Part shown: in pieces, positions 1,278-12,679 of the stretch
How positions within the stretch are numbered: the stretch's first letter is position 1
How the letters are laid out: every line of letters begins with the position of its first letter
Source of the DNA: Myxococcales bacterium
GTDB lineage: Bacteria; Myxococcota_A; Polyangia; Polyangiales; Houyiibacteriaceae
Direction: 5' to 3'
Assembly (NCBI GenBank): GCA_020354595.1
Contig: CP070650.1
Coordinates: 1,612,804-1,625,604 of the forward strand
Length of the DNA stretch: 12,801 nt
Program-made: the position numbers and the translations under genes
The notes under the pieces: generated by a model
The model's database searches: none
What the model was told of the DNA's origin: nothing
Seen by the model: the letters and a program-made list of their open reading frames with translations, nothing else

Positions 1278-2537
1278 TCACTCCTCGAGTCCGAAGTGCT
1301 CGATGTACTCCTCGAACGGCTCGCGGTCGCGAACCGGATCGATGCCGAAGTCCTCAGCCGTGTAGGTGTGCGACCCGTGCTTGTCGCGCGGGTTGCTCGC
1401 CATGAAGTGACGCATCTTCGCGTCGACCTCGTCACTCAGCTCGAAGCCAAAGTGGGCGTACATGCGACGCACGACCTCGATCGGGTCGGCAACCGTTTCG
1501 CGCAGCTTCACATCGAAGAACTGATCGCTTCGGTCGGCGAACCGCTTCCGTTGCTCGAGCGCCTCGTTGACGAGCTTGGCCCACATGTCGAGCTGTTGAC
1601 GACCGATTTCGTGAAGGTCGAGGTGATCGGTGCCCGCACTGCGCAGCATGGCCGTAAGGCTCGCGGCCGACGCACAGACCTTGATGGGATCGCGATGCGT
1701 GTGAACGATGCGGGCGTCTGGATACACGTCGAGCAACGCGTCGAGCTTATTCAAGTGCGCCGGAGACTTCAGCACCCAACGCTCGCCTCGCACGCCGCCC
1801 GACTGGACGTGCTGAAGGAAGCGCTTGTGGTACTCGTAGGTGGAGTGCATGTCGGCGTCATCCACCCACGCCTGATAGGACGGCACGTTGAACTGCACCT
1901 CGAGCTGCATGGACCTGAAACACTGGGTAAAGACCGCGACACACTCCTCGGGCTGCGTCGCGCTCATGGGGTGCATCGCGTCGAAGCCGGGCACGAGCTC
2001 GAAGAGTTGCTCGAGCGTCTTCTGCATCGTCGCAATGCGGGGATCGGTGTGGAACGTCTCGGGTGTGGCCGGCGGCACGGGGTGCTGGATCTCCCAGGCC
2101 AACGGAGAGCGGTTGGCCGGATCTTGCTCGAGAACGGAGTGGAGAATCGTGGTGCCCGTGCGCGGCAATCCGACGATGAACAACGGCCGAATGATCTCTT
2201 CCCGCTCGATCTCCGGATGCTTCTTCCGCCAGTCGACCAACCGCAACCGGTTGACGAGATTGTCGGTGGTGTAGCCAGCCACCATGATTCGCCCGAGGAG
2301 CGTCAGGCGGCCTTCGCGTTCGGCACTCTGCAGGAAGCGTTCGAGCCCCTCGCGAAAATCATCGTCGCCGAAATCCGAGCTACCTGCCTTCTGTATGGCC
2401 TTCTGCATCATCCGCTCCCCATCAAGCTTGATCGGCTGCAGACCGACGGAGTTGGCGGCGCGCCCCACGAAATTCATTACCTTGACGGGAAACGGACGAT
2501 GCGGCTCGCCGACCCGGATTTCTTGGGGAGAGCTCAT
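1278..2537 (-). CDS. PAPS-dependent sulfotransferase family protein
   Basis: A 419-residue protein of the Sulfotransfer_3-type family, which transfers sulfate from PAPS to a hydroxyl or amine. The 5'-phosphosulfate loop is visible as GLPRTGTT at residues 113-120. The 3'-phosphate region is seen as HTHRDPIKVCAS at 269-280, preceded by VLKSPAHL at 245-252. The roughly 110 residues before the P-loop form a helical N-terminal region typical of the long bacterial members. There is no signal peptide, so a cytosolic location is likely. It is the last gene of a four-gene minus-strand operon, and its ATG overlaps the SDR stop as ATGA (2534-2537), so translational coupling is expected. The acceptor is unknown; a hydroxylated sterol or lipid made by the neighbouring oxygenases is an inference. 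Related proteins in actinobacteria and proteobacteria are often uncharacterised. Confidence 0.88.
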   Translation of the reverse strand: MSSPQEIRVGEPHRPFPVKVMNFVGRAANSVGLQPIKLDGERMMQKAIQKAGSSDFGDDDFREGLERFLQSAEREGRLTLLGRIMVAGYTTDNLVNRLRLVDWRKKHPEIEREEIIRPLFIVGLPRTGTTILHSVLEQDPANRSPLAWEIQHPVPPATPETFHTDPRIATMQKTLEQLFELVPGFDAMHPMSATQPEECVAVFTQCFRSMQLEVQFNVPSYQAWVDDADMHSTYEYHKRFLQHVQSGGVRGERWVLKSPAHLNKLDALLDVYPDARIVHTHRDPIKVCASAASLTAMLRSAGTDHLDLHEIGRQQLDMWAKLVNEALEQRKRFADRSDQFFDVKLRETVADPIEVVRRMYAHFGFELSDEVDAKMRHFMASNPRDKHGSHTYTAEDFGIDPVRDREPFEEYIEHFGLEE

Positions 2538-3358
2538 CCCTTGCCCATCACCGAATCCATGAGCTCGTCGCCGTACATCATGCGGTTGAGCTCCTCGAAG
2601 TCGTCACCCTGTGGGATGCTCATGCCGCCACATACGCTGAGGATCTGGCCCGTGACCCACTTCCCACTGTCGGCAGAGAGGTAGACGACGGCATCGCCGA
2701 CTTCTTCTGGAGCCCCAGCACGGCCGAGCAGCGTGTGCTCGACGAGCCCCCGAATGAACTCCTCGCTGAAGTTGTCCGAGATCGCTTCGGTGTCAATGTA
2801 GCCCGGCGCGATACAGTTGACGCGAATCTGAAAGGGAGCGAGCTCCACCGCAGCGCAACGTGTGAGCATCTCGAGACCCGCCTTGCTCGTACTGTACGGC
2901 GCCATCCACTTTTCGACCTTCGAGCCGCCGACCGAAGAGATGGTGATGATGCTGCCGCCGCCGTAATCCCTCATCGATAGCGCCGCATGCTTGATGCAGG
3001 TCGCGGTGCCGACGATGTTGAGCTCGCAGCAGAACTGCCACGCGTCGACGGGCGCTTCGAGGATGGGGCCCGGGTAGCCGCTACCCGCATTGGCGACGAG
3101 GATGTCGAGACCGCCCTCGCCCGCCGCCGCGTTGACGGCTGCGACGACTTCGTCCTCGACGGTGATGTCGCAGACCTGGAACGAAACCTCACCCTCCGGA
3201 ACGATGGCCTTCAGCCGGCTGACCGCCTCCTCGAGGACGTCGTCGCGTCGTCCGACGATCAGAACCTCCGTGCCATGCTCGAGCAGTCGCTGCGCGCATC
3301 CAAACCCCACTCCGGTGCCGCCACCGGTCACCAATGCCTTCTTGCCAGCTAGTCGCAT
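2534..3358 (-). CDS. SDR family NAD(P)-dependent oxidoreductase
   Basis: A 274-residue classical short-chain dehydrogenase/reductase. The cofactor motif TGGGTGVG is at residues 11-18, Asp64 is the adenine-contact position, and the NAG motif is at 90-92. The catalytic residues are Asn114, Ser142, Tyr155 and Lys159 (YSTSK). Arg37-Arg38 after the second beta-strand suggests NADP(H) preference. The C-terminus is slightly longer than usual and acidic. Such enzymes interconvert hydroxyl and keto groups; in this setting a sterol or steroid alcohol is a reasonable but unproven substrate. A good ribosome binding site, GAGGAG (3365-3370, minus strand), lies 6 nt before the ATG inside the end of the ferredoxin gene. 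The gene starts 3 nt after the ferredoxin stop and overlaps the sulfotransferase start by 4 nt. Confidence 0.93.
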   Translation of the reverse strand: MRLAGKKALVTGGGTGVGFGCAQRLLEHGTEVLIVGRRDDVLEEAVSRLKAIVPEGEVSFQVCDITVEDEVVAAVNAAAGEGGLDILVANAGSGYPGPILEAPVDAWQFCCELNIVGTATCIKHAALSMRDYGGGSIITISSVGGSKVEKWMAPYSTSKAGLEMLTRCAAVELAPFQIRVNCIAPGYIDTEAISDNFSEEFIRGLVEHTLLGRAGAPEEVGDAVVYLSADSGKWVTGQILSVCGGMSIPQGDDFEELNRMMYGDELMDSVMGKG

Positions 3359-3361
3359 CTG

Positions 3362-3553
3362 TCACTCCTCGATCTTGAGGGCCATCGTGGGACAGTACTT
3401 CACCGCCCGTTCGACCTTCTCGCGGAGCTCTTCGGGGGGGCTTTCCTGAAGGACCTTCATGTTGCCCTCGTCGTCGACCTCGAACACCTCCGGCGCTTCC
3501 CCTTCACACTCGCCGTGACCCCGGCATAGATCGTAGTCCACTACGATTCTCAT
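3362..3553 (-). CDS. Small 3Fe-4S-type ferredoxin (P450 redox partner class)
   Basis: A 63-residue ferredoxin starting MRIVVDYDLC. The cluster ligands are Cys10, Cys16 and Cys54 in the pattern CxxHxxC...CP, with His13 where a fourth Cys would stand in a 4Fe-4S protein. This is the pattern of small actinobacterial ferredoxins that feed electrons to cytochromes P450, including the one next to CYP51 in Mycobacterium tuberculosis (Rv0763c). The protein is very acidic, as expected for docking to a P450 and a reductase. The start is set by the ATGA overlap with the upstream oxidoreductase stop (3550-3553); a frame can be read much further upstream, but only as a shadow of that gene. The best partner in view is the CYP51-like P450 about 7 kb away on the other strand. 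No ferredoxin reductase gene is present in the window. Confidence 0.93.
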   Translation of the reverse strand: MRIVVDYDLCRGHGECEGEAPEVFEVDDEGNMKVLQESPPEELREKVERAVKYCPTMALKIEE

Positions 3554-4644
3554 GGCTGAAAGCGCCCCGCGAAGGCACGTAGAGGAAGGTCTGCGCTGGT
3601 CATCAAACCGGGCTTGGCGTCGCAGACCGGACCGATGGCGTTGAGGGCGGGCATTCCGGTGATCGTCATCCCGATCGACGCCATGTAGGTCGGGTCGCTC
3701 CAGTCCATTTGCCCGGAATCCATGGCGGGCAAGATCATGTGCCGGTTCATGATCTGCGGATTGCCTCGAACGGTCATGAGGTAGCAGTTCTGCACGTTCC
3801 ACTTCGGCTTCGTCTTGGGCGTCATCTGCCACTCGAGGTGCACCTCGATCTTCGGTTCGCCTTTCGACTTTCCAATGTACTTGGCGAGGCTCGCGCCAAC
3901 CGAGCCCTCCGGAAGCACCCACCATCCGAGGTCGACCTCTTCGGTGCATGCGCCGAGCTCGATCTCGAAATCCACTTCGTCGATCTCGACGCCGCAGCAA
4001 TCGGCAATCAGGTGAATCGAATCGATGAACACCGTCGCCCCCGCTCGAAACATCTCCGGGATCTCCGGGTCCTCGACGGGGCGTCCATAGCCATGCCGCT
4101 TCCAGGTCTCCACCGAATGGTGGCAAGACACGTCGACCGTTTCGGTCACGGTGATGTGGTCGATCCGGGACAGGCCCGCGGTGTTCACGATGGCCAGGAT
4201 CTGCGCCAACCCCGGGTTCATTCCGGTGCCGTAGAACGTCGCACCGCCGCGCTCGCATGCCTCTGCGATGAGCTCCGTCGCCTTCTTGCCCGAGGGGTGT
4301 GTGAAGTTCACGTCGCGCGAGTACCCGGTGATCCAATCCGAGGTCGTCACGATGTTGATGCCCGCCTCGAGCAGCCGGCAGAAGATGTCGATGTCCGGCC
4401 AAACGCCGAAGAACGTCACGCAGTCAGGCTTCGCCGCCAATACATCGTCCAGGTTACCCGTCGCTTGGATGCCAACCGGATCGATGCCTACGATCTCGCC
4501 TGCATCGCGGCCGATCTTGTCCTCGCTGTAGCAATAGAGCCCGATCAGCTCGAGGTCGGGATGTTGAATGGTCTTGTGCACCATCTCGCTGCCGACGTTG
4601 CCGGTCGCGAACTGAAAGACTCGAAGGGGTCTCGTGGTCGTCAT
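3550..4644 (-). CDS. Dihydrodipicolinate reductase-like / 2,4-diaminopentanoate dehydrogenase-like oxidoreductase
   Basis: A 364-residue NAD(P)-binding protein. The N-terminal Rossmann strand and loop read QFATGNVG at residues 11-18. A second conserved block is GTGMNPGL in the middle of the protein, as in the family usually annotated as dihydrodipicolinate reductase or 2,4-diaminopentanoate dehydrogenase. The length is much greater than true DapB (about 270), so a lysine-pathway role is unlikely. Homologues recur beside P450s, ferredoxins and SDRs in mycobacteria and other lipid-degrading bacteria, but their reaction is mostly unknown (established pattern from memory; identity not computed). 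It is the first gene of the operon leading to ferredoxin, SDR and sulfotransferase. There is no clear Shine-Dalgarno sequence; a -10-like TATCCT ends 8 nt before the ATG, suggesting a leaderless message. Confidence 0.85.
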   Translation of the reverse strand: MTTTRPLRVFQFATGNVGSEMVHKTIQHPDLELIGLYCYSEDKIGRDAGEIVGIDPVGIQATGNLDDVLAAKPDCVTFFGVWPDIDIFCRLLEAGINIVTTSDWITGYSRDVNFTHPSGKKATELIAEACERGGATFYGTGMNPGLAQILAIVNTAGLSRIDHITVTETVDVSCHHSVETWKRHGYGRPVEDPEIPEMFRAGATVFIDSIHLIADCCGVEIDEVDFEIELGACTEEVDLGWWVLPEGSVGASLAKYIGKSKGEPKIEVHLEWQMTPKTKPKWNVQNCYLMTVRGNPQIMNRHMILPAMDSGQMDWSDPTYMASIGMTITGMPALNAIGPVCDAKPGLMTSADLPLRAFAGRFQP

Positions 4645-4708
4645 GGCGCGCGAGGATAGAATTCGTTTCCATTCGTTGCAATTCGATTATACCGTGCACG
4701 ACGACCTC
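4645..4708. promoter_or_regulatory. Divergent promoter region with three 10-bp-phased ATTCG repeats
   Basis: This 64-bp spacer separates the minus-strand oxidoreductase operon from the plus-strand Rieske gene. ATTCG occurs at 4661-4665, 4671-4675 and 4681-4685, exactly one helical turn apart, so a regulator bound to the copies would sit on one face of the DNA. On the minus strand, TTGCAA (4676-4681) and TATCCT (4653-4658) are 17 nt apart and fit a -35/-10 pair whose start would fall at or next to the ATG at 4644. A perfect minus-strand TATAAT also occurs at 4686-4691, but with a poor -35. On the plus strand, TTTCCA (4666-4671) and TATACC (4688-4693) are a weaker pair. The repeats sit within these promoter elements, consistent with an operator. 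Promoter calls are by eye. Confidence 0.45.
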
Positions 4709-5677
4709 ATGAAGCTACCGATGCCATCGGGGTGGTTCCGGATCGCGACCAGCAAAGAGGTTCCGCGCGGGGAAGTCCGTGTCTTCAAGATCAACGGCCG
4801 CGAGGTGGTCGCGTTTCGGGACGAGCAGGGTGAAGTCACCGTCGTCGATCCCATCTGTCCTCACATGGGCGCGCACCTCGGCTACGGAGGGACGGTCGTC
4901 GACGGCGCCATCCGATGCCCATTTCACGGCTTGCGATTCAACCAGCAAGGCAAGTGCGTGAGTACGGAGTATCCCGACAATCCGGAGGTCGATCTCTCGG
5001 TGCGAACATGGCCTGTCATGGAGCAGCTCGGGTGCGTCTTCGTGCATGCGGGACATGACGCCGCCGCCCCCACCTGGGAGCTCCCGAAATACGACACGGA
5101 CGGTTGGACGGCGCCTGTCACCAAGGTGCTGACGCTCAAAGGCCATGTTCAAGACGTTGCGGAGAACGCCGTCGACTTCGGTCACTTCGGAGCGGTTCAT
5201 CGGTATTCGGATCTGCTGGACCCGACGCTCGAGATCGACGGGCCTCGCATGCATTCGAAGTTCGGCTTCAGTCGACGCCACCCGTTTCTGCCGAGGTCCA
5301 AGGTCGAGTCGATCTTCGACACCGACGTGCACGGTCTCGGTCTCTCAGTGACCGATTTGCGCTCCCCCAAGCTCGGCATCCACTTTCGGGTGATTCTGAC
5401 GGCGACCCAACTGGACCCGGACACGATGTCCTTCGGAATCGGTCTCAGCTCCGAATGTCCTCCGCCGATCGTCCCCAAAGCCATCCGCGGCCTGCCGGGA
5501 GTCTGGCGCGCTGCAACGCACGCCCAGATCCGCCTGGTCCATCCCTTGGTCGTGTCCGACGTGCTCCAGGACAAAGAGATCTGGGAGCACCGCGTGCCCA
5601 TGGAGGCCCCGGCGTTGATTCGCGGGGACGGCCCCATTGCGAAGTACCGCCGCTGGGTGAAGCAGTTCTACGCCTAG
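4709..5677 (+). CDS. Rieske non-heme iron oxygenase, KshA-like (copy A)
   Basis: A 322-residue oxygenase component of a Rieske-type monooxygenase. The [2Fe-2S] ligands are Cys50, His52, Cys70 and His73 (CPHMGAHLG ... CPFHG). The mononuclear iron site is Asp156, His159 and His164 in AENAVDFGHFGAVH, with Asp288 in LQDKEIWEHR as the carboxylate ligand. That block and the C-terminal DGPIAKYRRW...QFY closely resemble 3-ketosteroid 9alpha-hydroxylase KshA and the related bacterial sterol C-4 demethylase SdmA class, so a steroid-like substrate is likely. The ATG at 4709 was chosen because it leaves a short lead before PSGWF, as in the neighbouring paralogue; 4721 and 4634 are in-frame alternatives. 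No Shine-Dalgarno sequence is evident. No KshB-type reductase is present in the window. It converges on copy B with an 18-nt gap. Confidence 0.92.
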   Translation: MKLPMPSGWFRIATSKEVPRGEVRVFKINGREVVAFRDEQGEVTVVDPICPHMGAHLGYGGTVVDGAIRCPFHGLRFNQQGKCVSTEYPDNPEVDLSVRTWPVMEQLGCVFVHAGHDAAAPTWELPKYDTDGWTAPVTKVLTLKGHVQDVAENAVDFGHFGAVHRYSDLLDPTLEIDGPRMHSKFGFSRRHPFLPRSKVESIFDTDVHGLGLSVTDLRSPKLGIHFRVILTATQLDPDTMSFGIGLSSECPPPIVPKAIRGLPGVWRAATHAQIRLVHPLVVSDVLQDKEIWEHRVPMEAPALIRGDGPIAKYRRWVKQFYA

Positions 5678-5695: not shown

Positions 5696-6649
5696 CTAGT
5701 GGGCCCCGGAAGCCGTGTCGCTCGACTGGGAGTAGAACTGACTCGTCCACCTGCGATATTCCGAGATGGGCCCGTCGCCGTCGCAGAGCTTCGGTTGTGC
5801 GAGAAACGCCTTGTGCTCCCAGATCGGAATGTCCTGTTCCATCTGCTTGCAGACGTCTTTGATGACCGCGGCAGCGACGCGGTTCTCGGCGTCGCTCATT
5901 TTCTGCGTGAACGAGAACTGAGAGTCGATCGTCTCGTTGTCGACGGGCGCGTGCGACAGAAGAAGCACGGTCTCGCAAATGCCGGTGAACCGGGTGATCG
6001 TGCAGCCCATCCCGTGAGCCTCCACGGAGACCATTCCCTCGACCTCGCCGCGCGGCGTGGCCATCTTCACGTGCTGGCGGGCACGACGAATGTGCCCGTC
6101 GAGCTCGAGCTCGGACTCGGGAACGTTGGTCGTGCCATGTACGTACCGGAAGTGCGCGCGGTCGACGGCGTTTTCGCCCATCTCTTGGTTCTGCGTCTTC
6201 ACGGTCCAGCGGTGCCGTTCCAGCTCCGTCCAGTCGTCGCTCATGACCTCCGCAACCTCGGGGACCTCCCATGCCGGCGGCTCGCCCGCGCCGTGGTGCC
6301 AGGCCCAGATGATCTTGTTGCGCTCGACGCAATGCCAAGGCGCGACCTTCGCTTTCGGCGGGATGCGGCTCGCATAGGGGATCTTTGCGCATGCGCCCTC
6401 CCCGTCGAACTCCCAGGCGTGGAACGGGCAGCGGATGCTCTCGCCTTCGACTGTGCCGCCATGCCCCAGGTGCGCTCCGAGGTGCGGGCAAAAGGCGTCG
6501 AGCAGCGCAACCCGTCCCGATTCGGTCCGGAAGAGCACCAAGTCTCGCGCGAAGTAGCGCAGCGGACGTACGTCGCCGCGCGCGAGATCGTCCGCATAGC
6601 CGATTTGAAACCAGCCGTTGGGGATCGGATGCGGGAAGTCCTTGCTCAT
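5696..6649 (-). CDS. Rieske non-heme iron oxygenase, KshA-like (copy B)
   Basis: A 317-residue Rieske oxygenase component. The cluster ligands are Cys54, His56, Cys74 and His77 (CPHLGAHLG ... CPFHAW). The catalytic iron ligands are His166 and His171 in GENAVDRAHFRYVH, with Asp273 in EQDIPIWEHK. The C-terminal block DGPISEYRRWTSQFY again matches the KshA-type group, followed by a short Ser/Ala tail. It shares architecture with copy A but differs over most of the catalytic domain, so the two probably act on different substrates or positions rather than being a recent duplication. It is transcribed alone, convergent with copy A (18 nt between stops) and divergent from the acyl-CoA ligase gene (51-bp spacer). 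The electron donor is not encoded next to it. No Shine-Dalgarno sequence is seen before the ATG. Confidence 0.92.
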   Translation of the reverse strand: MSKDFPHPIPNGWFQIGYADDLARGDVRPLRYFARDLVLFRTESGRVALLDAFCPHLGAHLGHGGTVEGESIRCPFHAWEFDGEGACAKIPYASRIPPKAKVAPWHCVERNKIIWAWHHGAGEPPAWEVPEVAEVMSDDWTELERHRWTVKTQNQEMGENAVDRAHFRYVHGTTNVPESELELDGHIRRARQHVKMATPRGEVEGMVSVEAHGMGCTITRFTGICETVLLLSHAPVDNETIDSQFSFTQKMSDAENRVAAAVIKDVCKQMEQDIPIWEHKAFLAQPKLCDGDGPISEYRRWTSQFYSQSSDTASGAH

Positions 6650-6700: not shown

Positions 6701-8302
6701 ATGTCGCTACAAGAGGAAGGAACGCGAGGCGATTTGGAGTTTGGCACGATCGCCCGGCTCGTCCATCTCGCCGCGGAACGTTACGGGGACGATCCTGCAA
6801 TCGTCGATCACGGTCACAAAGTCTCGTTTCGGCAGCTCGAGACGGAGAGCCGACGCGTCGCCAAGGCGTTGATCGCAAGCGGCATCGAGCACGGTGATCG
6901 CATCTCGATTTGGGCGCCCAACATGCTCGAGTGGGTTGTGGTCGCGCTCGGCGCACAGACGGTCGGGGGCGTCGTCGTGCCCATCAACACGCGATACAAA
7001 GGCATCGAGGCCGAGTACCTGCTTCACAAGAGCGAAGCTCGCGTGCTTTTCACGGTCACGGGCTTTCTCGACACCGACTACGTCGCGCTCCTGCGCGAAA
7101 CCAACCCGGACCTTCCGTCCCTCGAAACTATCGTCGTGCTCAGAGGAGAGGCACCGGAAGGGACCGTAGGGCTCCAATCGTTCGTGGAACGCGGCACCTC
7201 GGTGTCCGATCAGACAGTAGACGCCAGACGCGACGCGGTGAAGCCCGACGACCTCTCCGACATCTTGTTCACGTCGGGAACCACCGGGAAGCCGAAGGGC
7301 GGCATGTGCACGCACGCCCAGAACCTTCGCGCCTTTCACGACTGGAGCGACATTTCAGGGCTCCGCCGCGGAGACCGATACCTCGTGGTTGCCCCGTTCT
7401 TCCATAGCTTCGGCTACAAGGCGGGCTGGTTGGCGGCGCTCATGATGGGGGCGACGGTCTACCCGCAGCCGGTTTTCGACGTCGACGCGGTGTTGGAGCG
7501 AATCGCCGCAGACCGAATCACGATGCTGCCTGGCCCGCCGGCCCTCTATCAGAGCATCCTCGCCCGGTCCGATCTCGAACGCTTCGATCTATCGAGCCTG
7601 CGGCTCGCGGTGATGGGTGCCGCGTCGATTCCCGTGGAGCTCATCCACAAGATGCGCGACGTGCTGAAGTTCGATTCGGTCGTGACGGCGTACGGGCTCA
7701 CCGAGACCACTGGGTGCGTGAGCATTTGCCGCCAAGGCGACTCGGCCGAGGTCATCGCCAACACGTCCGGCCGAGCCTTTCCCGGAGTCGAGACCCGTGT
7801 CGTCGACCCGGAAGGCAACGAAGTGCCACGCGGCGAGCCCGGGGAGATCATGGTCCGCGGTTATAATGTCATGAAGGGGTACTTCGGCGAGCCCGAGCAA
7901 ACACGCGAGGCCATCGATGCGGCCGGTTGGGTTCACACCGGCGACATCGGCGTGATGGACGATGACGGCTATCTCCGGATCACCGACCGCATGAAGGACA
8001 TGTTCATCGTCGGTGGCTTCAACGCGTATCCCGCGGAGATCGAGAACATCCTTTCAACGCACGACAAGATCGCACAAGTCGCTGTGGTAGGAATGCCGGA
8101 TTCCCGCCTTGGAGAGGTCGGAGCGGCGTTCGTCGTGCTCAAGCACGGCGAGCAGCTCAGCGAGGACGAGCTGATCGCGTGGAGCCGCAACGCCATGGCG
8201 AACTTCAAAGTCCCGCGCAGGGTCGAGTTCGTGGACGCGCTTCCGACGAATGCTACAGGCAAGGTCCTGAAGTTCGAGCTCCGAAAACGCGTCGGCGCTT
8301 GA
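6701..8302 (+). CDS. FadD3-like acyl-CoA synthetase (AMP-forming)
   Basis: A 533-residue adenylate-forming ligase that would activate a carboxylic acid as its CoA thioester through an acyl-AMP. Visible motifs are the phosphate loop TSGTTGKPKG (191-200), YGLTET (331-336), HTGD (412-415), the hinge region around RITDRMKDM (426-434) and the catalytic Lys521 in NATGKVLK. The blocks RYLVVAPFFHSFGYKAG and GGFNAYPAEIE strongly recall FadD3, the CoA ligase for the C/D-ring propionate intermediate (HIP) of actinobacterial steroid catabolism. The same subfamily also includes ligases of unknown specificity, so HIP remains an inference. It heads a co-directional run; the next SDR gene starts 14 nt after its stop. 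No Shine-Dalgarno sequence is visible at the ATG. Confidence 0.92.
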   Translation: MSLQEEGTRGDLEFGTIARLVHLAAERYGDDPAIVDHGHKVSFRQLETESRRVAKALIASGIEHGDRISIWAPNMLEWVVVALGAQTVGGVVVPINTRYKGIEAEYLLHKSEARVLFTVTGFLDTDYVALLRETNPDLPSLETIVVLRGEAPEGTVGLQSFVERGTSVSDQTVDARRDAVKPDDLSDILFTSGTTGKPKGGMCTHAQNLRAFHDWSDISGLRRGDRYLVVAPFFHSFGYKAGWLAALMMGATVYPQPVFDVDAVLERIAADRITMLPGPPALYQSILARSDLERFDLSSLRLAVMGAASIPVELIHKMRDVLKFDSVVTAYGLTETTGCVSICRQGDSAEVIANTSGRAFPGVETRVVDPEGNEVPRGEPGEIMVRGYNVMKGYFGEPEQTREAIDAAGWVHTGDIGVMDDDGYLRITDRMKDMFIVGGFNAYPAEIENILSTHDKIAQVAVVGMPDSRLGEVGAAFVVLKHGEQLSEDELIAWSRNAMANFKVPRRVEFVDALPTNATGKVLKFELRKRVGA

Positions 8303-8316
8303 AAGAAGAGGAAAGC

Positions 8317-9096
8317 ATGTCGGATCTGTTGGATCTCAAAGACAAAGTCGTCATCGTCACCGGCGGCACGATGGGCGCCGGCAAAGGCATTGCGGAGCGG
8401 TTCCTCGAGATGGGCGCGCACGTCACTGTCTGTGCGCGCAACGCACCCGCCGAGCCCATTGCCGTCGACGGACGCGAGGCGGTCTTCGTCGAGGCCAACG
8501 TCCGAAAGCCGGAAGACATCGATCGGGTCATCGACGATGTGGTGCAGCGACACGGACGGTTGGACGTTTTGGTCAACAACGCTGGCGGGTCGCCACCGGC
8601 CGACGCCGCGACCGCCTCGCCTCGCTTCTCGGCGTCGATCATCGACCTCAACCTCACGGCACCGCTGAACTTCGCTCAGAAAGCCAACGCCATCATGCAG
8701 AAGCAGGACGCCGGCGGCTGCATCATCAACATCGGTAGCGTGAGCGGGGTGCGCCCATCTCCGGAGACCGCGGTATATGGAGCCGCCAAGGCTGGGCTCA
8801 TGAATTTGACGACGTCGCTCGCCGTGGAGTGGGCGCCCAAGGTCCGCGTCAACACGATGGCCGTCGGCCCAATCCTCACTGAGAAAGCCGACGTGCATTT
8901 CGGCGACGGCAACATCCGCGAGGCCGTCGAGCGGACCGTGCCAATGGGTCGAATGGCGACACCGAGAGACGTAGCCGACGTTTGCCTGTTCCTCGCTTCG
9001 CCGCTGGCCAGCTACGTCACAGGAGCGAACGTCCTACTGCACGGCGGCGGTGAATGGCCGGCTTTTCTTCGAGCGTCCAAAGGCGAAGACGCCTGA
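8317..9096 (+). CDS. SDR family NAD(P)-dependent oxidoreductase
   Basis: A 259-residue classical SDR. The cofactor loop TGGTMGAG is at residues 15-22 and NNAG at 87-90. The active site is Asn112, Ser141, Tyr154 and Lys158 (YGAAK). The enzyme is expected to oxidise a hydroxyl or reduce a ketone. The start was chosen at 8317 because AGAGG (8307-8311) lies 5 nt upstream and the protein then begins at the normal distance from the Rossmann strand; the same frame is open further upstream only as an overlap with the ligase gene. It sits 14 nt behind the FadD3-like ligase and is almost certainly cotranscribed with it. Its residues differ widely from the other SDR in the window, so the two likely have separate substrates. 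Confidence 0.93.
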   Translation: MSDLLDLKDKVVIVTGGTMGAGKGIAERFLEMGAHVTVCARNAPAEPIAVDGREAVFVEANVRKPEDIDRVIDDVVQRHGRLDVLVNNAGGSPPADAATASPRFSASIIDLNLTAPLNFAQKANAIMQKQDAGGCIINIGSVSGVRPSPETAVYGAAKAGLMNLTTSLAVEWAPKVRVNTMAVGPILTEKADVHFGDGNIREAVERTVPMGRMATPRDVADVCLFLASPLASYVTGANVLLHGGGEWPAFLRASKGEDA

Positions 9097-9161: not shown

Positions 9162-9998
9162 ATGGTCGTAGCAGCGCTCCCCGAAGGAAAGTACGCCGAG
9201 GTCGGCGGCCGCATCACGATGCACTACCACGACGCTGGCAGCGGCGAGCGCGGGGTGGTCCTGTTCATGCACGGGAGCGGCCCGGGCGCGAGCGGTTGGA
9301 GTAACTTCAAGGGAAACTACCCGTTCCTCGCCGAGCATGGCTATCGAACGATCGTCCCCGACACGATGGGATACGGCTACTCGACCAAGCCCGAGGAAGG
9401 CGCATTCAGCCTTGCCGACGTGGCCGCCCAGTACAAAGGCTTACTCGACGCGATCGGCGTCGAGCGCGTGACCCTCGTGGGCAACTCGCAAGGTGGCGCG
9501 ATCGCGATTTCCATGGCGCTCGCGTACCCCGAGACGGTCGAGAAGCTCGTGTTGATGGCGCCCGGCGGTCTCGAGCCTCGCGAAACGTACATGGTGATGG
9601 AAGGGATCAAGGCGATGATCCGGGTCCTCTACAAGGAGGGCATCAGCAGGGAGACGATGCGAAAGGTCTTCACGCTCCAGCTAAACGACGAGTCGCTCAT
9701 CACCGACCAGATCATCGAGGAGCGTTACCAAGTCGCGATGACGCAGCACAAGGACAACATCGCGCGCATCCAAGTTCACAATCAAGAAGACCGCCTGTCG
9801 GAGATTCACTGCCCGGTGCTGTGCTTCTGGGGCACCGACGACAAGTTCTGCCCATCGACTGGCGCCGTGAAGATCGCAGAGCGATGCCCGAGCTCCCGAA
9901 CGATGCTGATCTCGCAGTGCGGCCACTGGGTCATGGTCGAATACGAGAAGCTCTTCAACGAGCTCACCCTGAAGTTCCTCGACGACGACCTCGGTTGA
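9162..9998 (+). CDS. Alpha/beta hydrolase, meta-cleavage product (HsaD/BphD/MhpC-type) family
   Basis: A 278-residue alpha/beta-hydrolase with the layout of C-C bond hydrolases that cleave aromatic meta-cleavage products. The oxyanion region reads HGSGPGASGW (37-46). The nucleophile elbow is GNSQGG with Ser109, followed by APGG (133-136). The acid is in GTDDKFCP (Asp226 or Asp227), and the base is His255 in CGHWVMVE. The CGHW block and PGG motif favour the HsaD/BphD group over ordinary esterases. HsaD acts on the opened A ring of cholesterol, but the partner extradiol dioxygenase (HsaC type) is not in this window, so another C-C or ester substrate is possible. A GAGG ribosome binding site (9150-9153) lies 8 nt before the ATG, directly after the KstR-type palindrome, which probably controls this gene. 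Confidence 0.88.
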   Translation: MVVAALPEGKYAEVGGRITMHYHDAGSGERGVVLFMHGSGPGASGWSNFKGNYPFLAEHGYRTIVPDTMGYGYSTKPEEGAFSLADVAAQYKGLLDAIGVERVTLVGNSQGGAIAISMALAYPETVEKLVLMAPGGLEPRETYMVMEGIKAMIRVLYKEGISRETMRKVFTLQLNDESLITDQIIEERYQVAMTQHKDNIARIQVHNQEDRLSEIHCPVLCFWGTDDKFCPSTGAVKIAERCPSSRTMLISQCGHWVMVEYEKLFNELTLKFLDDDLG

Positions 9999-10035
9999 GG
10001 CGCGCCCGCTCCCATCCGGCTGAAATTCATCGAGA

Positions 10036-10070
10036 TATAACGGATTTGCGAAATTTAGAATTGCGTTATA
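10036..10070. promoter_or_regulatory. Dyad symmetry upstream of tetR, probable autoregulatory operator
   Basis: TATAACG (10036-10042) and CGTTATA (10064-10070) are perfect 7-bp inverted arms, with AAATTT at 10051-10056 close to the centre. The whole patch is distinctly A+T-rich within a G+C-rich region. The right arm overlaps a -10-like TTATAC (10066-10071) that ends 9 nt before the regulator ATG at 10081. This is the usual arrangement for TetR-family autorepression. It bears no resemblance to the CTAGAAC palindrome at 9131-9146. Confidence 0.5.
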
Positions 10071-10080
10071 CGCTCCGTCT

Positions 10081-10701
10081 ATGTCGCAGGCAGCCGAAAA
10101 GGCGCGGAACGCGAAGGCCTCGATGTATCGGTCCCTCATCGTCGATGCGGCGGAGAAGCTGTTCGCGGAACGGGGCTACGAGCACACGAAGATTCAAGAC
10201 ATCGCCGCCGAGTCAGGGCTTTCACTCGGCACGCTCTACTCCGTGTTCGGCGGCAAGGGCGCGGTCTACGACGCCGTCCAAAGCGACCGACTGAGCGCGG
10301 TGTTCGCCCTCGCCGGCGAGGCGATGGCGAGTGGCGACAGCGCAGCCGACCGCCTCCTCAAGGGAAATCGCAGCTTCATTCGATGGCTGACCGAGCACCC
10401 CGACTTCCTTCGCATCCACCTCGAAGGCAGCACCTGGGCGACCAACCCCGGTGAAGTGGGCGAGGATCTGGTCGACGCTTGGCGCCGCGGCATCGAGCTC
10501 ATCGCGTCCGTGTGCGAAGAGGCCATCCAACAGGGCGACATGTACGAGGGAGACCCCGACATCTCCGCCCGCCTGATGGTGGCGACGCAACAGGTTTTCA
10601 TGTCGGCGTGGGTCGATTCAGGGATGAAAGAAGGCCCGGACAGCCTTGCTGACCGAATCGAGCAGCAGCTCGAGCGAGCGCTGATGAGGAGAGAACGATG
10701 A
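10081..10701 (+). CDS. TetR/AcrR family transcriptional regulator
   Basis: A 206-residue one-component regulator. Residues about 15-60 form the TetR DNA-binding domain: a first helix with LIVDAAEKLFAERGYEHTK, then the helix-turn-helix IQDIAAESGLSLGTLYSVFGGKGAVYDAV. The remaining 140 or so residues are the helical ligand-binding and dimer domain, too variable to name a ligand. It is probably a repressor of its own operon: its stop overlaps the P450 start as ATGA (10698-10701), so regulator and P450 are made from one message. A dyad just upstream (10036-10070) is the likely operator. No Shine-Dalgarno sequence precedes the ATG, and a -10-like element only 9 nt upstream suggests a leaderless transcript. 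A sterol, steroid or acyl-CoA ligand is plausible from context only. Confidence 0.92.
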   Translation: MSQAAEKARNAKASMYRSLIVDAAEKLFAERGYEHTKIQDIAAESGLSLGTLYSVFGGKGAVYDAVQSDRLSAVFALAGEAMASGDSAADRLLKGNRSFIRWLTEHPDFLRIHLEGSTWATNPGEVGEDLVDAWRRGIELIASVCEEAIQQGDMYEGDPDISARLMVATQQVFMSAWVDSGMKEGPDSLADRIEQQLERALMRRER

Positions 10702-12077
10702 GTGTAACCGCAACCGCTGGCACTGCACCGGCTGCGTCCCTCGAGCTCAAGACCCCCCCTCGTCTCAAAGGCGGCCTGCCTTGGATCGGCCATACAGTCG
10801 AGTTCGCGAAGGATCCGGTGGGCCTTCTTCAGCGAGCGTACGACGAATGCGGTCGGGTGGCCCAGTTCAAGCTAGCGGGGAAGAACGTCAACGTATTCGT
10901 AGGTCCAGAGGCGCACGAATCGCTCTTCCGGCATCCGGACGAGGTGCTCAATCCCACCGAAGCCTACAAGATGATGATCCCGGTGTTCGGCAAAGGGGTC
11001 GTTTACGACACCACGCACGAACGGATGATGGAGCAGCTGCACATGCTGCACCCGGCGCTTCGCAACAAGCGGATGCGCTCGTACACCGAGATCATCGCGG
11101 AGGAAACGCAGCTGATGATGGAGGACTGGGGCGACGAAGGCGAGTTCGAAGCGTGCGACTTCTTCGGCGTCCTCACCAGCTACACATCGAGCCGTTGTTT
11201 TCTCGGGCCCGAGTTCCGAAACGAAATGAGCGAAGAGTTCGCGCACCTGTATGTCGACCTCGAGGGCGGCATCGTTCCGATCGCGTATATCAATGCCTAT
11301 CTGCCCATTCCGGCATTCCGCAAACGGGACAAGGCGCGCAAGCGCTTGGGCGAAATGGTTTCGACGATCATCGCGCGGCGCAGGGAGCGGGGCACCGTGG
11401 GCGAGGACTTCATCCAGACGCTCATGGAGTCGACCTACTCGGACGGCACCACTCTCACCGACCACGAGATCACGGGCATCCTCATCGCCAACATGTTCGC
11501 CGGCCACCACACGAGCTCGGTGACCACCGCGTGGTCGTTGATCGAGCTCCTACGCCATCCCGAGCACTACGAAAAGGCATGCACGGAGGTACGCGGTCGT
11601 TTCGGAGACGGTGAGCCCTACTCGTTCAATGCGATGCGCGACATCGTGCAAACCGAGTGGGCCATCAAAGAGGCGCTTCGGATCCACCCGCCGCTTTTCA
11701 TGTTGTTCCGGACGGCGACGCAAGACTGCGAGGTGTACGGTCATCTCGTGAAGAAGGGCGAGTGGGTGTGCGTTTCGCCGATCGTCGCTCACCGGGAAGA
11801 CGCCGTGTTCCCGGACGCGCTCCGCTACGACCCTGATCGCTATGGCCCGGGGCGAGAAGAAGACCGGCGGCCGTTCGCCTACGTCTCCTTCGGCGGAGGC
11901 CGCCACAAGTGTTTGGGCAATGCATTCGCGTTGCTTCAAATGAAGGTCATTCTGTCCGCGATGCTCAATCGGTACGATTTCGAGCTCGCCGGCGACGAGA
12001 TTGCCACGGACTTTGGACGCGTCGTGCTAGGCCCCAAGCCACCCATTCGCGTTCGTTACCGCAAGAGAGGAGCATGA
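10698..12077 (+). CDS. Cytochrome P450, CYP51-family (sterol 14alpha-demethylase-like)
   Basis: A 459-residue soluble P450 without an N-terminal membrane anchor. The CYP51 B'-helix signature YxxMxxPxFGxxVxYD is intact at residues 90-104, and the I-helix has AGHHTSS (268-274), the CYP51 form with the invariant His-Thr pair. ExxR is EALR at 325-328. The heme loop is FGGGRHKCLG (398-407) with Cys405 as ligand. These features, and long runs like the Mycobacterium tuberculosis enzyme (for example FAGHHTSS and ALR.HPPL), place it in or next to CYP51. CYP51 enzymes remove the 14alpha-methyl group of sterol precursors in three oxidations. Two points differ from the mycobacterial enzyme: Met92 replaces Phe78, and Val275 follows the SS where Gly is usual. 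AGGAG (10687-10691) precedes the ATG by 6 nt. Electrons probably come from the ferredoxin at 3362-3553. Confidence 0.93.
   Translation: MSVTATAGTAPAASLELKTPPRLKGGLPWIGHTVEFAKDPVGLLQRAYDECGRVAQFKLAGKNVNVFVGPEAHESLFRHPDEVLNPTEAYKMMIPVFGKGVVYDTTHERMMEQLHMLHPALRNKRMRSYTEIIAEETQLMMEDWGDEGEFEACDFFGVLTSYTSSRCFLGPEFRNEMSEEFAHLYVDLEGGIVPIAYINAYLPIPAFRKRDKARKRLGEMVSTIIARRRERGTVGEDFIQTLMESTYSDGTTLTDHEITGILIANMFAGHHTSSVTTAWSLIELLRHPEHYEKACTEVRGRFGDGEPYSFNAMRDIVQTEWAIKEALRIHPPLFMLFRTATQDCEVYGHLVKKGEWVCVSPIVAHREDAVFPDALRYDPDRYGPGREEDRRPFAYVSFGGGRHKCLGNAFALLQMKVILSAMLNRYDFELAGDEIATDFGRVVLGPKPPIRVRYRKRGA
12065..12072 (+). promoter_or_regulatory. Ribosome binding site deciding the NTF2-like start
   Basis: GAGAGGAG lies 7 nt before the ATG at 12080 but only 1 nt before the in-frame ATG at 12074. 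The spacing favours 12080 as the start, although 12074 would give a typical ATGA overlap with the P450 stop. Confidence 0.6.
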
Positions 12078-12079
12078 CG

Positions 12080-12679
12080 ATGCCCGCATTTCCGCGTGAA
12101 GAGCTGGAAGAGATGATGGACCGGTGGCTCGAGGCCAACCGCAACGCCGAACGAGAAGGCAACTGGAGCAAGTACCTGGGCGTCCACTACACCGATGACG
12201 CGGTGTACCGGTGGAACATGGGTCCCAATGAGGAGTTCTGGGCGCGCGGCGTCGACGAGATCCGGGACGTCGCGCTCGGCTATCAGATGAAGGGCTTCGA
12301 GGATTGGTCGTACCCGTACGAGACGGTGCTCATCGATGAGAAGCAAGGCCAGGTCGTCGGCTTCTGGCGGCAGGTCGCCCCCTTCAAGCGCGACGATGGA
12401 ACCGACTACGAGATCGCGGGCGTCGGCGGCTCCTGGTTCAAGTACGCGGGTGACTTCAAGTGGTCTTGGCAGCGGGACTTTTTCGACCTCGCCAACGTGA
12501 AGTCGATCTTCTTCGAGCTCGCCGGAGCCGGCCATCTCAACCCGGTGATCCGCGAAAAGGTTCATCGGCAAGCCAAGGGCGAGATGCTTCCCGGGCACGA
12601 AAAGCTTCGCGAAGAGCCGGGTCGGATCGAGAAGGTGAAGAACGCGCTAGCGCTAGTGCGCATCGCAGTGTTCGGATGA
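12080..12679 (+). CDS. NTF2/SnoaL-like family protein
   Basis: A 199-residue protein (201 if it starts at 12074). The N-terminal helix with EELEEMMDRWLEANRNAE, followed by WSKYLGVHYTDDAVYRW, has the look of the cone-shaped NTF2/SnoaL fold shared by ketosteroid isomerase and many polyketide or steroid enzymes. The central part is rich in Trp, Tyr and Phe, as expected for a lined hydrophobic pocket. A basic C-terminal helix (about 155-190) extends beyond the usual 130-150 residues. No confident catalytic Tyr/Asp set of ketosteroid isomerase could be assigned, so isomerase activity is only a possibility. It directly follows the CYP51 gene, as an NTF2-like gene (Rv0760c) lies near CYP51 in Mycobacterium tuberculosis. 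It is probably cotranslated with the P450. Confidence 0.8.
   Translation: MPAFPREELEEMMDRWLEANRNAEREGNWSKYLGVHYTDDAVYRWNMGPNEEFWARGVDEIRDVALGYQMKGFEDWSYPYETVLIDEKQGQVVGFWRQVAPFKRDDGTDYEIAGVGGSWFKYAGDFKWSWQRDFFDLANVKSIFFELAGAGHLNPVIREKVHRQAKGEMLPGHEKLREEPGRIEKVKNALALVRIAVFG

Follow-up and report, generated by a model that had tools for sequence, protein, structure and literature searches.

The function of the bacterial sterol reductase 8,14-Bsr was described by Lee, Giner and Welander (J Bacteriol, May 2026; PMC13277303). The Methylococcus capsulatus enzyme converts 4,4-dimethylcholesta-8,14,24-trienol, the product of the sterol 14α-demethylase CYP51, to the 8(14)-dienol. Activity, at lower efficiency, is also reported for homologues from Mycobacterium tuberculosis and Sandaracinus NAT131, and CYP51 and Bsr are described as inherited together. 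Changes of D133, Y43, Y37, or Y78 in the M. capsulatus protein lower activity, while changes of D136 or Y80 have no effect (PMC13277303). For the mycobacterial CYP51 locus, the order is Rv0762c, Rv0763c, cyp51, Rv0765c, cyp123, Rv0767c (PMC10198500), with Rv0762c listed beside the ferredoxin Rv0763c and cyp51 (PMC10198500, PMC10470581). The locus considered here lies in a 12,801-nucleotide stretch (the window) of the Myxococcales bacterium assembly GCA_020354595.1, contig CP070650.1, positions 1,612,804 to 1,625,604. Its TetR, cytochrome P450, and NTF2-like genes are consecutive on the + strand and constitute an operon with a true CYP51, in a metagenome-assembled genome (MAG) that has Myxococcota as its closest named relatives.

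The P450 is, from its sequence, a genuine CYP51 with predicted demethylase activity, and the NTF2-like gene is an 8,14-Bsr orthologue with predicted reductase/isomerase activity. Together with a small ferredoxin, they most plausibly form a sterol-nucleus processing unit that acts on 14-methyl sterols taken from outside, for breakdown, a proposal given a probability of about 0.55, in which we infer the substrate, the catabolic direction, and the regulation.

In a PDB sequence search, entries designated as CYP51s or lanosterol 14-alpha demethylases score from 446 to 205 bits against the window P450, led by 7jj1/6mcw (446 bits; presumably M. capsulatus CYP51), 7tef (396), the Rv0764c entries (380), and 3jus (311; which we take to be human CYP51). 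Entry 9wat, named only “Cytochrome P450”, ranks among them at 263 bits, and the next other P450, 3dbg, scores 174 bits. Named relatives of the P450, at 77–85% identity, are from MAGs of Polyangiales, Myxococcales, Myxococcota, or Deltaproteobacteria, and the host is accordingly regarded as a member of Myxococcota. In a 52-row P450 tree, with a midpoint-drawn root, long outgroup branches, bacterial rows without eukaryotic CYP51s, and one partial sequence (L062, 302 aa), all 45 CYP51 rows, M. capsulatus included, split from the other P450s with support of 95/97. The window P450 groups with sequences of its genus and a sister genus (15 rows, 100/100), and this clade joins a 27-row group (87/86) including M. 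capsulatus, Mycolicibacter, Actinomadura, and Spongiibacter to give 42 rows (96/96). When a smaller sampling of 28 taxa is used, the genus is placed next to UBP10/NIOZ at low support (85/73), and its exact placement is thus not firm. CYP51s carry the signatures YxxxxxPxFGxxVxYD in the BC-loop and GHHTSS/GQHTSS in the I-helix; the window P450 keeps both stretches, as YKMMIPVFGKGVVYD and AGHHTSS, respectively. The PDB matches, the tree position, and the kept signatures rule out the reading that the protein is not a CYP51. The assignment made in an earlier note on this DNA is thereby upheld, since the P450 falls within CYP51 alongside characterized members.

The NTF2-like protein has a predicted KSI/NTF2 fold and is 57% identical over 1–199 to the product of the M. 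capsulatus Texas gene (L112; the strain of PMC13277303). All six residues mutated in that enzyme, Y37, Y43, Y78, Y80, D133, and D136, are identical and carry the same numbers in the window protein. Pfam and NCBIfam scans of the protein gave no match, nor did a PDB search with the single sequence; a PDB profile search returned two matches, “RPB_PLP3_R6” and a monooxygenase, which were not accepted as relatives. Bsr loci were found with a profile of 28 sequences (A1), the 80 named loci being the best of at least 451 confirmed, and a neighboring CYP51 was counted at ≥38% identity. Among these best 80, CYP51 lies ≤1,959 bp from the Bsr gene in 68 and on the same strand in 64. The hosts listed are Methylococcales, Spongiibacter, Oceanococcus, Salinisphaerales, Stenotrophobium, UBP10, and Myxococcota, and further Actinomadura, Planobispora, Mycolicibacter, and Acidimicrobiaceae. 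In six of the 12 loci without a nearby CYP51 (L104, L109, L111, L115, L118, and L128), the sequence reaches less than 2.5 kb 5′ of Bsr, and the remaining loci include M. capsulatus, whose CYP51 is elsewhere in the genome. An association unique to this genome is ruled out by the 68 loci; the pairing of CYP51 with the NTF2-like gene, often joined by a small ferredoxin, is kept in several phyla, with a mycobacterium among the hosts. The earlier description of a conserved but unassigned module therefore holds in its first part and lapses in its second, the NTF2-like partner being the 8,14-Bsr characterized in May 2026 (PMC13277303).

The small ferredoxin is the probable redox partner of CYP51, judging from its relatives. 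Its best PDB match is 8amp, a “possible ferredoxin” that we take to be from M. tuberculosis (57.7 bits), followed by residues 473–532 of the CYP51 entry 6mcw (52.7 bits). Among the 19 loci of relatives listed, 7 have a counterpart of 68–77% identity adjoining CYP51 or TetR-CYP51; open reading frames (ORFs) were called there by a simple script that small genes such as the ferredoxin may escape. G000, the genome holding the window, thus has a rearranged layout. With electrons from this ferredoxin, CYP51 would oxidize the sterol 14α-methyl group, released as formate, to leave an 8,14-diene, and 8,14-Bsr would reduce and shift its double bonds to give an 8(14)-ene. The genus most likely obtains its sterols externally, with prey, algae, plants, and methanotrophs as possible sources; the product would pass to 3-keto-steroid and ring-opening enzymes (a KshA-like Rieske oxygenase, a KstD-like enzyme, an extradiol dioxygenase, and a meta-cleavage hydrolase). 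In G000, the putative unit stands behind the TetR gene. The case that CYP51, the ferredoxin, and Bsr would act as one two-step unit is strong on sequence grounds; confidence in an outside source of the sterols is moderate, and confidence that the products are fed into degradation is moderate to weak.

Compared with the system of PMC13277303, the window has an orthologous Bsr with the same mutated residues, a CYP51, and a cognate-type ferredoxin. It differs in that the ferredoxin is a separate gene ~6.5 kb off on the opposite strand, a TetR gene precedes CYP51, the CYP51 lineage is separate, the CYP51 and Bsr trees conflict, and the incomplete G000 gives neither a cyclase nor an epoxidase match. 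To our knowledge, the mycobacterial host has no known sterol synthesis. Its locus shares CYP51, a small ferredoxin, and a Bsr homologue with the window but has another gene order (PMC10198500), and the window has a single P450 among the 13 ORFs scanned and adjoining Rieske oxygenases. The mycobacterial parallel drawn in the earlier note is sound for the CYP51/ferredoxin/NTF2-like set, with one substitution: on the gene order given in PMC10198500 and PMC10470581, the Bsr counterpart is more likely Rv0762c than Rv0760c.

The TetR gene, which the same note had counted as part of the module, is present in the window but is not a general feature, as counterparts (62–70% identical) lie 5′ of CYP51 in only 8 of 13 genus loci. 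The intergenic stretch before it is AT-rich and alignable in 8 relatives, with a TTGC[A/G]A (TTGCAA-like) box and AGAA-n-TTCTA-like half sites. No palindrome common to the 9 aligned upstream regions was found when a TetR operator was sought, only the AT-rich stretch, which is a candidate promoter and operator.

The distribution of sterol genes was surveyed in 33 genomes of the family, 19 of the window’s genus (G000 included) and 14 others. G000 is a single contig of 2,779,197 bases. A CYP51-clade gene occurs in 17 of the 19 genus genomes, the G017 copy being a fragment, and is missing from G019 and G027. Only five have a triterpene cyclase match (G016, G021, G023, G028, and G029) and five a squalene-epoxidase match >60 bits (G016, G021, G023, G026, and G028), with epoxidase matches of only 20–26 bits in four others. 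G015, G018, G024, and G025, each 100% complete by listing, have CYP51 and neither cyclase nor epoxidase. Searches of G000, 66.8% complete, gave 0 matches for oxidosqualene cyclase and 0 for squalene epoxidase. Elsewhere, no cyclase match was found in Spongiibacter and Stenotrophobium genomes with CYP51 and Bsr; the M. capsulatus genome has one, and an Actinomadura genome has cyclase-family matches at 32–33%. The CYP51 of this genus is mostly uncoupled from sterol synthesis, a finding that goes beyond PMC13277303.

Bsr is present in seven genus genomes including G000. The genus genomes of the other CYP51 clade have no Bsr save a 64-residue remnant in G028, and since this remnant sits at the expected place, it suggests that Bsr was lost in that clade. 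At the level of individual loci, the Bsr frames beside CYP51 in L030 (G025) and L028 (G018) are broken, either by sequencing error or by decay, and in L039 (G028) the remnant lies beside CYP51. The CYP51 and Bsr trees were compared over 28 matched taxa, with groups chosen after the trees were seen. The Bsr tree places the genus inside Gammaproteobacteria (99/98; 90/88 in a 41-row tree), a clade that the CYP51 data reject (p-AU 1.7e-5). In the reverse direction, the CYP51-like grouping is only marginally rejected by the Bsr data (p-AU 0.041), and a single Bsr clade of the genus with producer Myxococcota is not rejected (p 0.082). Because the trees conflict, the joint inheritance described in PMC13277303 may not hold for the window lineage, in which CYP51 and Bsr have probably been newly paired from different ancestries. 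This re-pairing, too, would go beyond that report.

In plants, cycloeucalenol cycloisomerase (CPI1) opens the cyclopropane ring just before the CYP51 step. A protein of ~270 aa, whose relatives are named cycloeucalenol cycloisomerase (JGI) or hypothetical (NCBI), is encoded directly 3′ of Bsr, or of CYP51 where Bsr is missing, in most genus relatives, an arrangement reminiscent of the plant sequence of steps. Of the 19 genus genomes, 16 carry a strong version of the gene and G017 a weak fragment, and matches of 29–31% occur in 2 of the 14 non-genus genomes. One copy is L032:7927-8721. The gene was not found in G027 or, in a departure from the plant comparison, in G000. A search of the plasmid collection gave no match, and the result listings of a literature search showed no bacterial activity for this protein and no link to myxobacterial sterol breakdown. 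Where it is present, the protein would open 9,19-cyclopropyl sterols and thus extend the unit in most relatives.

Genes of steroid-breakdown type accompany CYP51 in the genus. The count of KstD-like genes relied on NF009473, whose model name is “FAD-binding protein” (cut-off 837), and an author-set threshold of 400 bits. Matches of 454–578 bits occur in 17 of 19 genus genomes (the G027 copy cut by the contig end). Outside the genus, three of the 14 genomes have them, G005, G006, and G009, which are exactly those without a cyclase match. Fisher tests of KstD-like gene against cyclase, with related genomes treated as independent, give p 0.0013 (33 genomes) and 0.0027 (14 non-genus). The best PDB match of the G018 copy is 7p18, a 3-oxosteroid 1-dehydrogenase (474.6 bits). 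An extradiol dioxygenase at 73–100% identity to the L028 copy is encoded by 18 of the 19 genus genomes, among them G000 at 80%, the best match in the exception, G027, being 43%. Outside the genus, it is matched only in the same three cyclase-less genomes, at 39–51%. Its gene lies within the CYP51 neighborhood of several relatives, as do counterparts of the window hydrolase (82–86%) in five.

A number of observations weigh against a catabolic unit supplied from outside. G000 is incomplete, lacks a detected cycloisomerase-like gene, and, like G019, has only weak KstD-like matches. The TetR gene is absent from 5 of 13 genus loci. NF009473 also weakly matches every one of the 14 control genomes, and the KstD models themselves were applied to one copy, that of G018, which scores 582.6 bits against NF009478, below the cut-off of 789. 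In six genomes (L141–L146), the KstD-like gene lies outside the CYP51 block among ORFs that look, by eye, like housekeeping genes, and five genus genomes carry both a cyclase and a KstD-like gene. The L028 extradiol dioxygenase is nearer a biphenyl-diol dioxygenase model than HsaC, and below the cut-off for both; the window hydrolase scores 197.7 bits with NF045632 (cut-off 400) and 175.2 with TIGR03343 (cut-off 462). A cholesterol-oxidase-like gene occurs in 27 of the 33 genomes, producers and non-producers alike, and was dropped as a marker of degraders. Finally, G028 and G029 have a second CYP51 that shares its contig stretch with the cyclase. In G028 (L041, 1–10837), it ends a run with a squalene-epoxidase match, an HMG-CoA reductase, a cyclase, a polyprenyl synthase, and, by eye only, kinase-like ORFs; in G029 (L042), it ends a gene run with a cyclase. 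Because both CYP51s nest within the genus clade, a genus-type CYP51 serves an apparent biosynthetic operon in these two loci.

One alternative is that the window belongs to ordinary de novo sterol biosynthesis, with the epoxidase and cyclase in the missing third of G000. That explanation is unlikely, though G000 is indeed incomplete, cyclase matches occur in 11 of the 14 genomes outside the genus (partial only in G008), and window-CYP51-clade members include G023, with cyclase and epoxidase, and G026, with an epoxidase match. Five genomes of the same CYP51 clade, G014, G018, G022, G025, and G026, have no cyclase match, G018 and G025 being 100% complete, and family-model scans of the window ORFs recognized no isoprenoid gene. 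This last point separates the window from loci of other genera in its family that likewise have CYP51, namely L044, where it is paired with squalene epoxidase (SQMO) and Bsr in a manner that favors biosynthesis, L051, with cyclase and SdmA/SdmB-like genes, and L053, with cyclase and HMG-CoA reductase; the CYP51s of all three are only 40–46% identical to that of the window.

Scavenged 14-methyl sterols might instead be remodeled or detoxified without breakdown, yielding 8(14)-sterols for membranes or of lower toxicity. The core unit by itself yields an 8(14)-sterol (PMC13277303), and the block has no complete ring-degradation set, the KstD-like gene lying elsewhere. The window’s own genes of KshA-like, FadD3-family, and meta-cleavage type argue the other way, as does the tendency of the extradiol dioxygenase and strong KstD-like matches to track the genus and its cyclase-less sister genomes, and we consider remodeling quite improbable. 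A CYP51 with a changed job, in which a different polycyclic compound is the P450 substrate and Bsr takes up the P450 product, would fit a genus lineage apart from those with characterized enzymes and a genus-specific M two residues past the BC-loop motif tyrosine (L, I, V, or F in other CYP51 rows); with the P450 signature stretches conserved and the Bsr pocket residues unchanged, it is highly improbable.

Table 1. Location of the operon and of the other annotated features of the window.
Feature	Position	Strand	Remarks
TetR-family regulator	10081..10701	+	directly 5′ of CYP51; PF00440 E 2.6e-13
CYP51, sterol 14α-demethylase P450 (predicted)	10698..12077	+	
8,14-sterol reductase (8,14-Bsr) orthologue, NTF2/KSI fold	12080..12679, alternative start 12074	+	
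Promoter/operator-like intergenic region before TetR	9999..10080	+	putative operator function, from alignment of 9 upstream regions only
Small Fer4_15 ferredoxin, 63 aa, probable CYP51 redox partner	3362..3553	-	
Rieske oxygenase, KshA_C type, start uncertain	4634..5677	+	
Rieske oxygenase, full-length KshA-like (3-ketosteroid 9α-hydroxylase oxygenase)	5696..6649	-	matches KshA PDB 4qdf along 6-313, 175.7 bits (similarity only); PF19298 E 2.1e-40
Alpha/beta hydrolase, HsaD/BphD-like meta-cleavage-product hydrolase type	9162..9998	+	below both curated cut-offs
FadD3-family acyl-CoA ligase	6701..8302	+	NF005801 737 bits, cut-off 657
SDR oxidoreductase	8317..9096	+	NF005893 375 bits, cut-off 255
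DapB / 2,4-diaminopentanoate-dehydrogenase-like oxidoreductase	3550..4644	-	PF19328, PF01113; ATGA overlap with ferredoxin gene
SDR oxidoreductase	2534..3358	-	

Sulfotransferase and aldo-keto reductase genes also lie 5′ of TetR-CYP51-Bsr in the window. Counterparts of the DapB-like gene (82–83%) are found 3′ of Bsr in L028 and L058, and five of the 19 loci of relatives listed have a counterpart of the KshA_C-type Rieske oxygenase (74–80%) close to TetR-CYP51. The extradiol dioxygenase, esterase, FAD oxidoreductase, and GMC genes of G000 are grouped at 2.40 Mb, away from CYP51. Genes for an MscS-type mechanosensitive channel and for PDZ/T2SSC-like and CAAX-protease-like proteins (L028:2259-7609), with no evident sterol link, repeatedly adjoin the Rieske-ferredoxin-TetR-CYP51 block in the genus.

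Other CYP51-like P450s occur in different settings. The CYP51 of L051 (G012) and L053 (G010) adjoins the cyclase and groups with Planktothrix, representing a second CYP51 lineage within one bacterial family; neither genome gave a Bsr match. On the Planktothrix agardhii plasmid NZ_LR882940.1 (L163), a CYP51-like P450 (46%) of this different lineage is clustered with a squalene/phytoene synthase, an SDR, an FAD oxidoreductase, further P450s, and three Rieske proteins, possibly a cyanobacterial cluster for triterpenoids or sterols. Novosphingobium aromaticivorans pNL2 (L164) carries a distinct cluster whose families are of the same kinds as those of the window, with a 31% P450, a 2Fe-2S protein, several SDRs, a sulfotransferase, and a 143-aa protein annotated as NTF2-family.

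The role of the NTF2-like partner was already solved in 2026 (PMC13277303). Two points remain new: the occurrence of the module in a myxococcotal lineage that is poor in cyclases and carries genes of cycloisomerase-like and ring-degradation types, and the likelihood that CYP51 and Bsr were paired afresh. The analysis also names a candidate for a bacterial cycloeucalenol cycloisomerase. Tentatively, and with more doubt than conviction, an uncultured myxococcotal pathway may degrade sterol precursors that other degraders cannot handle, by way of the cycloisomerase, CYP51, Bsr, and KshA/KstD-type ring opening, with CYP51 and Bsr brought into partnership once more, separately from their pairing in methanotrophs and mycobacteria. 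Why apparent non-producers keep a CYP51 is a long-standing question in mycobacteria, and a CYP51-ferredoxin-Bsr unit that can serve scavenged 14-methyl sterols would offer a reason. The myxococcotal family, which holds apparent producers, non-producers, and mixed genomes, provides the natural comparison.

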